Assembly: GCF_014646815.1 (NCBI RefSeq)
Contig: NZ_BMNZ01000006.1
Span: 124,001 to 188,000 of the forward strand
Length of the DNA: 64,000 bases
Origin: Terrabacter tumescens
GTDB taxonomy: Bacteria > Actinomycetota > Actinomycetes > Actinomycetales > Dermatophilaceae
Direction of reading: 5' to 3'
A program made the position numbers and the translations under genes. Below, piece by piece: positions 58,976-63,320 of this stretch (positions within the stretch are counted from its first letter, which is position 1; the number at the start of each line of letters is the position of its first letter). The notes beneath the pieces are model-generated. The model was not told the DNA's origin, ran no database searches, and worked only from the letters and a program-made list of their open reading frames with translations.

Positions 58976-61915
58976 TCACATCGGCACGACGTTGACGAGC
59001 TTGGGCGCCCGCACGATGACCGTGCGGATGCCGCCCTCGGTCGCCGCCCTCACCTTGTCACGTCCGAGCGCCAGCTCGCGGAGGTTGTCCTCGGAGATGT
59101 CGGGGCTCACCTCGACCCGGTCGCGGACCTTGCCCTTGATCTGGATGACGCAGGTGACCTGCTCCTCCACGATCTTGGCGGGGTCGCTCACGGGGAACGC
59201 GGCATACGCCACCCCGTCGTCGTGACCGAGGCGCTGCCACATCTCCTCCGCGATGTGCGGGGCCATGGGCGCGAGCATGAGCACCATGGCCTCGACGACC
59301 TCGCGCGGCGGGGCGTCGAGCTTCGTCACGGCGTTGTTGAGCTCGATGAGCTTGGCGATGGCGGTGTTGAACCGCAGCCCCTCGAAGTCGTCACGAACCC
59401 CGGCGATGGTCTGGTGGAGCTGCGTCGTCAGCGCCTGGTCGAGGGCCGCGTCGACGACCCGCACCTGGCCGGTCGCCTCGTCGACGACGTTGCGCCACAG
59501 GCGCTGCAGGAAGCGCTGGCTGCCGACGACCGCGCGGATCTCCCACGGCTTGGACAGCTCCAGCGGCCCCATCGACATCTCGTAGACGCGGAAGGTGTCG
59601 GCGCCGTACGCGTCGTACATCTCGTCGGGGCTGACGGAGTTCTTCAGCGACTTGCCGATCTTGCCGTACTCGCGGTTCACCGGCTGCCCCTGCCACGTGA
59701 ACGTCGGCTCGGCGCCGTGGCTGCCCGGGTGCTCCTCGACCTCGGACGCGGTGACGTACTGACCGCGGCTGTCGGTGTAGGCGTAGGCCTGGATGTAGCC
59801 CTGCGAGAAGTACTTCCGGAACGGCTCCTCGCTGCTCACGTGGCCCAGGTCGAAGAGGACCTTGTGCCAGAAGCGCGCGTAGAGCAGGTGCAGCACCGCA
59901 TGCTCGACGCCGCCGACGTAGAGGTCGACGCCGCCCGGGTCACGCGTGCCGGCCGGCGCGCCCTCGACCGGGGTGTCGTGCCGCGCCAGCCAGTACGCCT
60001 CGTTGGCGGGGTCGACGAGGCTTTCGCGGTTCGCGGGGTCGAGGTAGCGCAGGTAGTACCAGCACGAGCCGGCCCAGTTGGGCATCGTGTTCGTCTCGCG
60101 ACGGAACTTCCGCAGCCCTCTGCCGTCGCCGAGGTCCTTCTCGACCTCGACCCACTCGGGGACGCGGGAGAGCGGCGGCTCGGGGCTGCTCTGGGCGTCG
60201 TCCGGGTCGAACGTCTTGGGGCTGTAGTCCGGCACGTCGGGAAGGGTCAGCGGCAGCTCGTCGTCCGGGACGGCATACGCCACCCCGTCCTCGTCGAACA
60301 TGATGGGGAACGGCTCGCCCCAGTAGCGCTGGCGGCTGAAGAGCCAGTCGCGGATGCGGTAGCTGATGGTGCCCTCGCCGGTGCCCTCGGCCTCGAGGAA
60401 GTCGATGATCTTCGCCTTGGCGTCCGCGACGTGCAGGCCGTCGAGGGAGATGCGGTCGTTGGCGGAGTTGATCGCGACGCCGTCGCCGAGGAACGGCTCG
60501 TCGTCGGGGTGGCCCTCGGCCGGCTGGACGGTGCGGACGATCGGGATGTCGAACTTCTCGGCGAACTCCCAGTCGCGCGTGTCCTGCCCGGGCACGGCCA
60601 TGATCGCGCCGGTGCCGTAGCCCATCAGCACGTAGTCGGCGACGAAGACCGGGATGCGCTCTCCCGTCAGGGGATTCGTGGCCCACGAGCCGGTGAAGAC
60701 ACCGGTCTTGTCCTTGCCCTCGGTCTGGCGCTCGACGTCACCCTTGCGCGAGGCTGCGAGCTGGTATGCGGCGACGGCCTCCTTGGGGGTCGCGCTCGCC
60801 TCGGTGTCCGCCCCCTTCCAGGCGTCCTTGGTGCCGTCGGGCCAGTCACCTTGCGGCACCAGGGAGTCCACGAGCGGGTGCTCCGGCGCGATGACCATGA
60901 AGGTCGCACCGAAGATCGTGTCGGGGCGGGTCGTGAAGACGTCGATGCCGTCCTCCTCGCCCGTGCCGGTGACGACGGGGAACGTGACGCGTGCACCCTT
61001 GGACCGGCCGATCCAGTTGCGCTGCATGAGCTTGACCTTCTCGGGCCAGTCGACCCCGTCGAGGTCGTCGGCCAGCCGGTCGGCATACGCGGTGATCCGC
61101 ATCTTCCACTGGCTGAGGTTGCGGCGGAAGACCGGGTAGTTGCCGCGCTCGGACCGCCCCTCGTTGGTGACCTCCTCGTTGGAGAGCACCGTGCCCAGAC
61201 CGGGGCACCAGTTGACCGGCGCCTCGTCGGTGTAGGCCAGGCGGTGGCGCTCGAGGACCGCGGAGCGCTCGGTGGCCGGGAGGTCGGCCCAGCCCCGCCC
61301 GTCGGCCTCGACGACGGCGCGGCGGCCCGACTCGAACTCCTCGACCAGCTCGCTGATCGGACGCGCCTTGCCGCGGCCGCCGTCCTCGCGGACGGCGTCG
61401 GCGTCGTACCAGGCGTCCCAGATCTGCAGGAAGATCCACTGCGTCCAGCGGTAGTAGTGGTCGTCGATCGTCGCGAAGGTGCGGCGGTTGTCGAAGCCCA
61501 GCCCGAGGCGGCGCAGCTGGCGCTTCATGTTGGTCATGTTCTCCTCGGTGGTCTTCCGAGGGTGCTGTCCGGTCTGGACGGCGAACTGCTCCGCGGGCAG
61601 GCCGAAGGCGTCGTAGCCCAGGGCGTGCAGGACGTTCTTGCCGAGCATCCGGTGGAAGCGGCTGTAGACGTCGGTCGCGATGTAGCCGAGCGGGTGGCCG
61701 ACGTGCAGGCCGACGCCGGAGGGGTAGGGGAACATGTCGAGGACGATGAGCTTCTCGCCGCGGGCGGCGACCTTCTCGGGCTCGGCCCACGGACCGGCGG
61801 GGTTGGGGGCGTTGAACGTGCCCTCCTCCTCCCAGCGGTCCTGCCAGGCGGTCTCGATCTGCTGCGCCATCGCGGCGGTGTAGCGGAACGGGGTCTCGTT
61901 GCTCTGCTCGCTCAT
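58976..61915 (-). CDS. leuS: Leucyl-tRNA synthetase
   Basis: A 979-residue class I synthetase. HIGH motif as HVGH at 71-74 in [21 protein letters not shown] motif as KIGKS near residue 752, the CP1 editing domain in between, and a C-terminal anticodon/LeuS-specific domain. The length is at the upper end of the bacterial range. The ATG at 61915 is taken, as family similarity starts with [12 protein letters not shown]. Its 127-nt leader contains a Leu-rich peptide and a terminator, so expression is likely tuned by charged tRNA-Leu. Confidence 0.97.
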
Positions 61916-61946
61916 GTCGTCTCTCTCGTCGCTGCTGGGCCCGGGC

Positions 61947-61973
61947 AAAAGAAAACCCCTCACACAGGAGGGG
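61947..61973 (-). terminator. Intrinsic terminator in the leuS leader
   Basis: On the minus strand CCCCTC, a 6-base loop and GAGGGG are followed at once by TTTTCTTTT, a full Rho-independent terminator 32 bp before the leuS ATG. A terminator between a promoter and its gene is the mark of attenuation. Confidence 0.78.
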
Positions 61974-61974
61974 A

Positions 61975-62017
61975 AGCCGCGTTGATGTCGGGAGTCCCGA
62001 CCTTCGTCAACGCGGCT
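61975..62017 (-). promoter_or_regulatory. Nested leader stem of the leuS attenuator
   Basis: AGCCGCGTTGA (62017-62007), which is the end of the leader peptide ORF including its stop, pairs perfectly over 11 bp with TCAACGCGGCT (61985-61975). Its loop carries a second stem GTCGGG/CCCGAC. The lower strand ends one base before the terminator. A ribosome stalled at the Leu codons would mask the upper strand. Confidence 0.65.
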
Positions 62018-62042
62018 GCGGAAGGAGCAGCAGGCCAGCCAT
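62007..62042 (-). CDS. Leucine-rich leader peptide of leuS ([11 protein letters not shown])
   Basis: A 12-codon ORF (11 residues and a TGA) with four consecutive Leu codons, CTG CTG CTC CTT; CTT is rare in such GC-rich genomes. It ends inside the 5' strand of the leader stem, which is the layout of ribosome-mediated attenuators. It has no ribosome site, but a -10 box six bases upstream predicts a leaderless start at this ATG. Confidence 0.65.
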
Positions 62043-62048
62043 GGCCCA

Positions 62049-62054
62049 AGGTTA
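62049..62054 (-). promoter_or_regulatory. -10 hexamer of the leuS leader transcript
   Basis: TAACCT on the minus strand, six bases before the leader peptide ATG at 62042. Confidence 0.5.
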
Positions 62055-62127
62055 GCGCAGCCCCTCCCACCGTCCCCGTCGACCGCCCTCCCCGCCATCG
62101 ACACCCGAGCAAGCACGCCTCCCCAAC

Positions 62128-62205
62128 TCGAGTGAGCGCCCCACCCCATCCTTCGAAGATCGAGTGAGCGCCCCGCCCCACCGTCGACAGTCGAGTGAGC
62201 GCCCC
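62128..62205. repeat. Left array of about 32-bp repeats (three copies)
   Basis: The core TCGAGTGAGCGCCCC occurs at 62128, 62160 and 62191 (periods 32 and 31), each joined by 16-17-base spacers rich in GGGG on the other strand. A degenerate fourth copy may lie at about 62104-62123. The array begins 3 bp after the stop of the nuclease-like gene. It is the inverted counterpart of the array at 63214-63320. Confidence 0.85.
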
Positions 62206-62208
62206 ACC

Positions 62209-63213
62209 TCATGGATTCATGCTTCGCTGGATGGCCAGATCGATCGCGTGACGAGCAAAGAACTTGGTGCCGACCTCCGCGAGATCCAGCGCCTCAAGAG
62301 GAATGCGCAGGCTCGAGGCCACTTTCGCGACGAGCGCCCGCCTCGACGCGTCTCCGGTCACGTCGGCGCGCCAGATCTCGTGGACGATCCAGCCGTCGCG
62401 CTCGAAACCTCGTCGGCGCCACGCGTCGTGCGCTCGTTGTTCGGGACTGGCGTGGAACTCCTCGCCCTGGTACTCCCCGATGACTCTGATGGGCCGCTGG
62501 CCGGGCCGGTCGATGCGCCACACCAGGTCGCCGAAGCCGAGGAGGCGACCAGAACCGTCCGCCGCACGCACGGGTTCGTTCAGCAGAGGCTCCGGCAGGC
62601 CGACCCTCATGAACATGAGTCGGGCAACGGTCTCCATGGGCGACGCAGAACCGAGGCGAACCAGTCCGAGGGCCTCGGCAAGGGTCCTTTTCCCCCGAGG
62701 TCTTATCCGGCGGCCGAGCGCTTCATGCAGTGGCGCCACGGCCCCGAGTCGCGTCGCACACGCATCTCCGAGGATGACGAGATCATCGATCCCGATCCGT
62801 TTGCCTCGTCCGACGAGCTCGCCCAGGTCGACCCAGGTGTCCGCTGGACCGACGACCGGCAGGTTGTGGATGTCGACCAGTCCGCGCGGGTGGTGAAAGC
62901 GGTGTCCCACCACGCCCTCGATCCTCGTCTGGGCACAGGCAATCGGTCGGACTGCGTGCAGGCGAACGTCTTCGGTCACGGCATACGGCAGTGGAAGGCC
63001 CAGGAGCTGCGCTGCGGTGACATGAGAGAAGGCACTGAGTGGCGGCAGCACGGCGAACGCGGCGCGACAGCGATTTACCAGGGCCTCATCGACCCTGGGG
63101 TCCGGAAGCTGAAGTCTGAGCACTCGTTCACTCTGGCCGGCGGATGCCTCTCGGCGACCCGACGACGTGGCTCCTGTGGATGCTGACGATCGAGGTCGAA
63201 CGGGTGTGGACAA
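62209..63213 (-). CDS. DUF559/Vsr-like putative nuclease with AbiEi-type N-terminal region
   Basis: A 334-residue protein. The C-terminal 100 residues match the layout of DUF559 restriction-like domains: [25 protein letters not shown] with the acidic/Gln pair, then [27 protein letters not shown]. The N-terminal part, with a [18 protein letters not shown] helix motif and [15 protein letters not shown], resembles the actinobacterial family annotated as AbiEi-antitoxin-like or type IV TA proteins. The start is uncertain: TTG 63213 or GTG 63123. Repeat arrays flank it on both sides, so it is likely mobile or a recent insertion. Confidence 0.7.
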
Positions 63214-63320
63214 GCGCTCACTCGACGGGGACGGGCTGGGGCGGGGCGCTCACTCGACGGGGACGGGCTGGGGCGGGGCGCTCACTCGACTGTCGTCTGT
63301 GGGGCGGGGCGCTCACTCGA
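63214..63320. repeat. Right array of about 32-bp repeats (four copies)
   Basis: Core GGGGCGCTCACTCGA occurs at 63243, 63275 and 63306, with a first copy trimmed to GCGCTCACTCGA at 63214; periods are 32, 32 and 31. The first two spacers are identical (CGGGGACGGGCTGGGGC) and the third (CTGTCGTCTGTGGGGC) matches a left-array spacer at 14 of 16 bases. The array abuts the start of the nuclease-like gene and ends 3 bp from the stop of the lysoplasmalogenase gene. Confidence 0.88.

Follow-up and report, generated by a model that had tools for sequence, protein, structure and literature searches.

A leucine leader of fixed geometry precedes leuS in Terrabacter tumescens and many relatives and probably acts as a transcription attenuator

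Attenuation is a textbook mechanism that rests on two mutually exclusive RNA folds. In the 64,000-nucleotide stretch of the Terrabacter tumescens genome analysed here (the window), an initial annotation had proposed that leuS, the gene for leucyl-tRNA synthetase, is preceded by a leucine leader-peptide attenuator, and had drawn an antiterminator as the second fold. The locus raises the question of how a ribosome on this leader could govern the terminator that follows, and whether a second fold takes part at all. Here we describe the parts of the leader, their recurrence in relatives and the search for a competing structure, and conclude that leuS is probably under leucine-responsive, ribosome-mediated transcription attenuation.

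Architecture of the leuS leader

All parts of the element lie on the minus strand (Table 1). The initial annotation had read a TAACCT −10 box (62054–62049) six bases ahead of an 11-residue ORF (ATG at 62042), four successive Leu codons including the rare CTT, and an ORF end that lies within a perfect 11-bp stem; each of these readings was confirmed. The −10 box is preceded by TGCG (62059–62056), with TGGGCC as the 6-nt spacer to the leader ATG, and CTT accounts for 1 of the 67 Leu codons in leuS. The stem (hereafter S1) pairs 62017–62007 with 61985–61975, and the conserved core of its left arm is GCCGCG (62016–62011). The terminator hairpin (hereafter T) follows after a single base (61974), as had been proposed, but its left arm, CCCCTC, occupies 61973–61968 and not 61974–61967; the loop (61967–61962) and the right arm, GAGGGG (61961–61956), complete it. 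The start codon of leuS is the ATG at 61915, and the first 70 residues of LeuS are 99% identical to those of Terrabacter sp. MAHUQ-38 LeuS. The leader ATG and the leuS ATG are 127 nt apart, so the two reading frames differ.

Table 1 Features of the leuS leader and its gene in the window
Feature	Positions	Strand	Basis
leuS, leucyl-tRNA synthetase, 979 aa, controlled gene	58976..61915	−	Pfam PF13603, PF00133, PF08264
Extended −10 element, TGCG-C-TAACCT	62049..62059	−	Read from sequence
Leader ORF, leuL-type, 11 residues	62007..62042	−	Sequence and recurrence in relatives
Four Leu codons, CTG CTG CTC CTT	62022..62033	−	Sequence
Anchor codon CTT (last Leu codon)	62024–62022	−	Conservation of codon
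S1 left arm, AGCCGCGTTGA, 3′ end is the leader stop codon	62007..62017	−	Folding, comparison
6-bp hairpin within the S1 loop, GTCGGG ACT CCCGAC	61987..62001	−	Folding
S1 right arm, TCAACGCGGCT, core CGCGGC at 61981–61976	61975..61985	−	Folding, covariation
Terminator hairpin T, CCCCTC CTGTGT GAGGGG	61956..61973	−	Sequence, folding
U-tract, TTTTCTTTT	61947..61955	−	Sequence

The 75-nt segment that spans codon 8 to the U-tract has a folding energy of −38.3 kcal/mol, compared with an average of −23.6 in shuffled sequences (z = −4.65); folding of the entire 127-nt leader is less striking (z = −1.75). Searched against positions 61600–62400, the Rfam 15 covariance models gave no relevant match up to an E value of 5.

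The leuS frame stays open through the leader to 62212, giving an ORF of 1078 aa, and automatic annotation could add about 99 N-terminal residues to LeuS (58976–62212, minus strand). The gene upstream of leuS (62209–63213, minus strand) has a weak, below-cut-off match to the restriction-endonuclease-like family REase_MTES_1575. It is flanked by the repeat GGGGCGCTCACTCG, with three copies on each side in opposite orientations (62129–62205, minus strand, and 63243–63319, plus strand). The repeat, which looks like an intergenic repeat family, has 26 exact copies genome-wide, often clustered, against 0 of the reversed pattern.

Recurrence of the element in relatives

Upstream regions were gathered using the LeuS protein alone, and strict duplicate removal left 111 distinct ones. 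These were searched with a script that uses hairpins only (a GC-rich stem ending at most 8 nt from a terminator; promoter, frame and codons unused). By this hairpin geometry, S1 and T are present in 73 of the 111 regions. A CTT lies 7–9 nt upstream of the S1 foot in 71 of these 73, and the element is preceded by a −10 box with a start codon 5–9 nt later in 72; the CTT is in frame with the leaderless start in 70. The script found no element in the other 38 regions, many of which belong to bifidobacteria, Acidimicrobiia and non-actinobacteria, and two of the 38 (L104 and L105, from genomes G086 and G006) are misses of the script in which the covariance model finds the element. In several lineages without the element, a −10-like box was seen by eye within about 60 nt of leuS (L020, L125, L135 and L138).

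The covariance model, built on 49 leaders, matches in 123 of 149 genomes of the family (among the matches listed). At least seven of the matched genomes have listed matches only away from leuS (G031, G055, G075, G101, G117, G126 and G144), and these matches probably lie at ilvB or other leaders. In a search of the class, 200 of 394 genomes carried matches at E ≤ 0.01; in a search of the phylum, 26 of 246 did so at E ≤ 0.0001, including 13 from beyond the class. Matches outside the class reach, for example, 52 bits (G626) and 40 bits (G559). Scores are 67–73 bits within the genus of the window, 62.9 bits in Streptomyces tateyamensis (L038) and about 55–69 bits in genus g84, the carrier of the Streptomyces lividans peptide MRAVRLLLSEPR. 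The hairpin and terminator are homologous to, and alignable with, Streptomyces sequences, as one covariance model and covariation cover both.

Leader, codon, stem and terminator reappear together across much of the family, and their arrangement is therefore far from chance. The initial annotation had named absent conservation of the Leu codons or of the stem pairing in relatives as the outcome that would speak against an attenuator. Both are conserved among relatives, which favours the attenuator in front of leuS.

Anchor codon and promoter across leaders

A set of 150 leaders was compiled from 235 loci, of which 178 were parsed and 28 then removed as duplicates. The parser accepted only leaders with a TANNNT box 4–9 nt ahead of a start codon and fixed S1 at offset 8 (offsets are counted from the first base of the anchor codon), and some loci were recruited by a model containing CTT; for codon and offset features, the hairpin-only test above and the free-offset test below are the ones to trust. 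Presence of leuS downstream was verified for 117 of the 150, with short flanks accounting for part of the remainder. Three of the 150 were not placed by the scripts, and counts out of 147 omit them.

Of the 150 leaders, 139 have CTT as the anchor codon, which stands 8 nt ahead of the S1 core; 6 have CTC, 3 have CTG and 2 have another codon. One and two codons upstream of it, Leu is encoded in 144 and 126 leaders, but by CTT in only 36 and 21; the Leu codons immediately upstream of the anchor are mostly CTC or CTG. In some leaders the anchor is the sole Leu codon (MHHEQQLP in L116, VASQQQRLIGPR in L124 and VAVTVHLPGPR in L131), and the peptides of relatives generally read M..LLL.xPR* or M..LLLx*. 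One rare codon, CUU, would be singled out as the sensor, and in this organism it is presumably read by a minor tRNA. The choice of anchor agrees with theory developed for E. coli, in which sensor codons are chosen for sensitivity (PMC1183508).

The spacer between the −10 box and the start codon is 6 nt in 106 leaders, 7 nt in 42, 8 nt in 1 and 9 nt in 1, and TGCG stands ahead of the −10 box in 103 of the 150. Since the spacer measures 6–7 nt in 148 of 150, transcription is expected to start at the start codon itself; in the window this would be position 62042, the A of the leader ATG, and the leader would be leaderless. Stop codons fall at offset 15 (TGA, 117 leaders) or offset 6 (TAG, 18 leaders) in 135 of the 150, and both positions place the GCCGCG core inside a terminating ribosome.

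Covariation and fixed geometry of S1 and T

Both hairpins are preserved through compensatory change. Across 100 leaders, in an alignment that was fitted to the covariance model, both partners had changed in 12 of the 16 base pairs of the two hairpins, with 86 both-side-changed cells against a shuffle mean of 22.9 (0 of 500 shuffles as high). A MAFFT alignment of 49 leaders gave 23 both-side changes in S1 against 9.0 in shuffles (again 0 of 500 as high).

When the offset was allowed to vary between 3 and 15 nt, 138 of 147 leaders had their S1 foot at 8 or 9 nt, counted from the first base of the last Leu codon. Shuffled controls could be parsed in 121 of 735 cases and their offset distribution was flat; these shuffles moved two-base blocks and only approximated the dinucleotide content. 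The gap between S1 and T is 0–4 nt in all 147 parsed leaders (0–8 allowed), with S1 loops that vary from 7 to 54 nt. Measured along the RNA, the distance from anchor to T spans 33–78 nt (s.d. 9.1), and with S1 closed it is 8–12 nt (s.d. 0.9; the parser allowed 8–17). With the offset free, the corresponding values are 31–78 nt (s.d. 9.2) and 6–18 nt (s.d. 1.5). These distances take no account of the S1 helix width, and L012 and L037 were left out of the distance statistics of an early script. The leader in the window measures 51 nt linearly and 10 nt with S1 closed. The stop codon lies 20–63 nt from T (median 34), and less than 27 nt from it in 30 of the 147.

No base is common to S1 and T in 141 of the 147 leaders, and a single base is in the other 6. 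Outward extension of T took in no base of S1 in any of the 147, and that of S1 took in 0–1 nt of T. That stem and terminator are adjacent without overlapping was the reason given at the outset for treating the switching mechanism as inferred; the observation is correct, and the adjacency is itself a conserved feature and no shortcoming of that interpretation. Geometry is the fixed property of leuS leaders.

Beyond the hairpin, the base T occupies positions +2 to +4 in 132–138 of the 147 leaders. A loose motif, UGYCC(GG), was also seen 9–15 nt beyond the T hairpin (61946 onwards in the window), with the base T at +9 in 123 of 147 and G at +10 in 81 of 147; perhaps this motif tunes termination.

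The same layout at ilvB

The only other strong match of the model in the genome is the ilvB leader (G000 C3:28113–28190, 32.9 bits; the next match scores 18). This leader encodes VARLLVLP*, with a CTT anchor, a GCGCGC stem and a terminator after 1 nt (L169, 1501–1578). A set of 30 ilvB loci from the family and order, 9 of them from one genus, yielded 28 parsed leaders. Their S1 foot lies 8 nt from the last branched-chain codon in 23 of 28 and 7–10 nt from it in 28 of 28 (3–15 allowed), the gap to T is 0–4 nt in all 28, and the anchors are CTT (21), CTC (5) and ATT (2). The stem sequence is unlike that of leuS S1, being GCGCGC in most. Because the stem differs in this way, it is the layout and not the letters that is kept between the leuS and ilvB leaders.

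A model for the switch

The promoter geometry, leader, codon, stem, terminator and spacing described above, and their conservation, are the basis of the following model. RNA polymerase would start at the A of the leader ATG, and the leaderless mRNA would be loaded by a ribosome that reads the Leu run. When charged tRNA-Leu is scarce, above all the one that reads CUU, the ribosome would wait while CUU occupies its A site. The S1 foot, at offset 8, lies approximately at the mRNA entry of the ribosome, and the stem would stay closed; with S1 closed and the ribosome waiting, the polymerase would pass T into leuS. When leucine is plentiful, the ribosome would pass CUU, open the GCCGCG core on its way to the stop codon and leave, and after its departure T would end the transcript. 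Translation of the leader, stalling on it and the direction of the switch are deduced, the last from the requirements of leuS. Taken as a whole, with a stall at CUU, a closed S1 and read-through past T, this is the model towards which we lean.

Two steps of the model concern the behaviour of S1 beside the ribosome. At offset 8, 5 nt separate the A-site codon from the helix, a distance similar to that of frameshift-stimulating stems. On the assumption that the ribosome ends there, one waiting at CUU would leave S1 intact and one a single codon further on must open it. In folding calculations, the fraction of S1 pairs formed was 0.95 with a mask edge at offset 6, 0.74 at 9, 0.45 at 11 and 0.30 at 12; E. 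coli ribosomes have footprints that extend to about offset 12. According to these calculations, S1 closure under a stalled ribosome would depend on where the edge of the ribosome lies.

We infer that S1 persists next to the waiting ribosome and that the two, with S1 closed, together disarm T. Because S1 and T share no bases, such disarming cannot be ordinary base-pair competition. By analogy with E. coli, where moving a stop codon to 5 nt before a terminator lowered termination from about 90% to less than 10%, proximity could suffice: closed S1 would put the waiting ribosome 8–12 nt from T. In the same E. coli work repression of the terminator was gone beyond 27 nt, and its authors suggest that 10–15 nt of free mRNA are needed between A site and hairpin (PMC4824070). 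The 8–12 nt with S1 closed and the 20–63 nt from stop codon to T mostly flank that range, with the reservation that these thresholds are those of E. coli and of a terminator without such a preceding stem. In the 30 leaders whose stop codon lies less than 27 nt from T, a terminating ribosome could also interfere.

Tentatively, the leader may be a hairpin-bridge attenuator without an antiterminator: S1 closure would shorten the RNA between ribosome and T from 33–78 to 8–12 nt, this shortcut would exist only during the wait at the anchor, and the ribosome would then smother T. If true, the bridge design, whose measurements leuS and ilvB have in common despite unrelated stem sequences, may be a general plan of actinobacterial leaderless attenuators, and it would explain the attenuator parts reported missing in actinobacteria.

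Two other readings give S1 a different role. It is unlikely, in our judgement, that S1 acts alone, as a closed stem that sterically hinders T in the RNA exit channel while the ribosome does nothing but open S1. The gap of 0–4 nt in every parsed leader would suit such hindrance, and no ribosome would be needed beside T; however, leuS would then be on whenever the leader is untranslated, and this reading alone does not account for a rare CTT fixed at one position when the Leu codons ahead of it are mostly CTC or CTG. The role of S1 could also be inverted: the waiting ribosome would cover its left arm, so that starvation means open S1 and read-through, and S1 would close after the ribosome has left and then help T, for example by stacking or by freeing the T left arm. 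S1 abuts T as stacking would need, and the fraction of S1 pairs formed drops to 0.30 under a mask to offset 12, but T is stable without S1 (P(T) 0.94–0.98 in every state) and a ribosome at the stop codon also covers S1, which would blur the signal; on balance we regard the inverted role as distinctly unlikely.

Search for a competing fold

In the preferred model T is disarmed by proximity; in classical attenuation a stalled ribosome would instead permit an antiterminator to pair with the left arm of T. The leuS leaders do carry control codons for leucine and an intrinsic terminator between leader and leuS. For the pairing that the initial annotation had suggested, 62002–61995 with the T left arm, the result is a rejection by comparative pairing tests and folding. 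In the window, the G-rich stretch of this pairing sits in the local hairpin at 61987..62001, and, by eye, the stretch is missing in many relatives and the hairpin in many of the more distant ones. When partners were swapped among 147 leaders, no upstream segment showed co-evolved complementarity to the left part of T: z was +2.2 for the S1 loop, +4.4 for the stretch from leader to foot, +1.8 for the S1 right arm and +1.1 for the S1 left arm, against −22.0 for the positive control of S1 left with S1 right arm (more negative values mean pairing). All four upstream values have the wrong sign for locus-specific complementarity. An upstream duplex with the T left arm was stronger than T itself in only 6 of 147 leaders.

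Folding under ribosome masks agrees with this result. Masking the RNA up to the S1 foot, to imitate a ribosome at the anchor, left both hairpins formed in 146 of 147 leaders; a mask at the stop codon opens S1 by construction, and T then formed in 142 of 147. T is the favoured hairpin in 142–146 of the 147 under the masks, with single exceptions such as L090 (ribosome at stop), and its mean probability P(T) was 0.98 under the anchor mask, 0.94 at the stop codon and 0.94 without a ribosome. The folding models contain no thermodynamic switch, T forming whatever the state of the ribosome, and no mutually exclusive antiterminator of the classical kind was found in the leuS leaders. Attenuators predicted for leuS of Streptomyces coelicolor and Streptomyces avermitilis (PMC1262725) and the weak pairing that can be drawn in the window speak for classical attenuation, but lack of locus-specific complementarity, the six stronger duplexes in 147 and the persistence of T under the masks make it improbable.

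Pairing beyond the terminator was examined in the same way. Between the S1 arms and the sequence past the terminator there is no pairing (z = +2.6 and +3.4), and the stretch from anchor to foot gives a weak signal with that sequence (z = −2.4). A pseudoknot between CGGAC in the S1 loop and GUCCG past the U-tract was rejected as a general feature over the 150 leaders, where the within-locus mean was −13.05 kcal/mol and the swapped mean −12.99 (z = −0.2). By eye, CGGAC in the S1 loop together with a GUCCG-like stretch downstream was seen in one clade (L028, L101, L102, L109, L115, L116, L120, L123, L124, L127 and L137; CGGGC in L116), and a long-range pairing limited to this clade is possible.

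Competition at the boundary, the mechanism put forward for the 'fast' attenuator of Corynebacterium glutamicum ilvBNC, would have the foot of an S1 antiterminator compete with the foot of T over a few common bases. The order of parts is the same there, the feet are adjacent and the control codons are CUU and GUA (PMC11857589), but the C. glutamicum structures share a trinucleotide, whereas S1 and T share none; this mechanism was rejected for leuS, given 0 nt in common in 141 leaders and 1 nt in the remaining 6 of the 147, and we consider it very improbable. Equally improbable is that S1 is a pause hairpin that only synchronises polymerase and ribosome, with the switch elsewhere or purely kinetic. 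Hairpin-stabilised pauses have a spacing near 10 nt after the hairpin, and a pyrimidine followed by G stands 10 nt past S1 in 79 of 147 leaders, but the other 68 lack it and no alternative pairing to T was found. That the stretch is non-regulatory and simply the 5′ part of a longer leuS, whose 1078-aa open frame does span the leader, is scarcely credible, given that the open frame varies from 983 to 1120 aa from stop to stop among nine genomes of the genus, that in G130 it has 1008 aa and begins about 29 codons before the conserved ATG with the leader starting 171 nt upstream (L071, identical to L001), and that S1 loops range from 7 to 54 nt.

Comparison with known systems

The closest precedents are in Streptomyces. 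A 2005 study predicted leuS attenuators in S. coelicolor and S. avermitilis (PMC1262725), and leuL2 of S. lividans was listed as leaderless by RNA-seq in 2021 (PMC8079986). Like the leader studied here, Streptomyces leuL2 is a leaderless, Leu-rich leader before leuS with a hairpin and a U-rich stretch (PMC8079986, PMC1262725), and model matches that bear the S. lividans leuL2 peptide share the anchor codon, S1 and T. The Streptomyces leuS leaders were published as classical, with an antiterminator (PMC1262725), and the consulted portion of PMC8079986 gives no switching model for leuL2. A fixed CTT, an 8-nt spacing and an absent antiterminator are not described in the consulted portions of these two papers. 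No leuS leader outside Streptomyces is named in the titles and abstract openings found, in a search that covered mostly openly accessible literature; a 2010 comparative study of attenuation is cited in PMC4833913. The leuS design, locked in its geometry and free of an antiterminator, is possibly new.

Such a design bears on an earlier survey of actinobacteria, which found leader peptides but, in many instances, reported the remaining parts of an attenuator as missing (PMC1262725): an exactly conserved layout that needs no competing fold would explain these cases. It would offer a search rule (control codon, 8 nt, stem, 0–4 nt, terminator) and would make control of leucyl-tRNA synthetase testable in many genera.

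Other leaders resemble that of leuS in part. Mycobacterial Cys leaders are likewise leaderless short ORFs with a run of the sensed amino acid; unlike leuS they have no conserved terminator hairpin (PMC1262725), and they have been described as translation attenuation (cited in PMC13236596). The ilvB1 leader of Mycobacterium tuberculosis is described in terms of mutually exclusive structures, unlike the leuS leaders, and changing its LVVI to AAAA abolished induction, so that the leader codons are needed (PMC13236596). For the ilvB and leuA leaders of S. coelicolor, dependence on the codons is ambivalent as summarised in PMC1262725. The ilvBNC leader of C. glutamicum, a branched-chain amino acid leader whose transcription starts about 1 nt from the leader start codon, has a hairpin beside the terminator and a CUU control codon, as the leuS leaders do; its antiterminator and terminator overlap by a trinucleotide, and the leuS leaders have no such overlap (PMC11857589). 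In pyrBI of E. coli, a nearby ribosome and not an antiterminator blocks the terminator hairpin (PMC5021804, PMC10135430). There, UTP is sensed through polymerase pausing, whereas at leuS the ribosome would be held at a starved codon and brought close to T by a hairpin.
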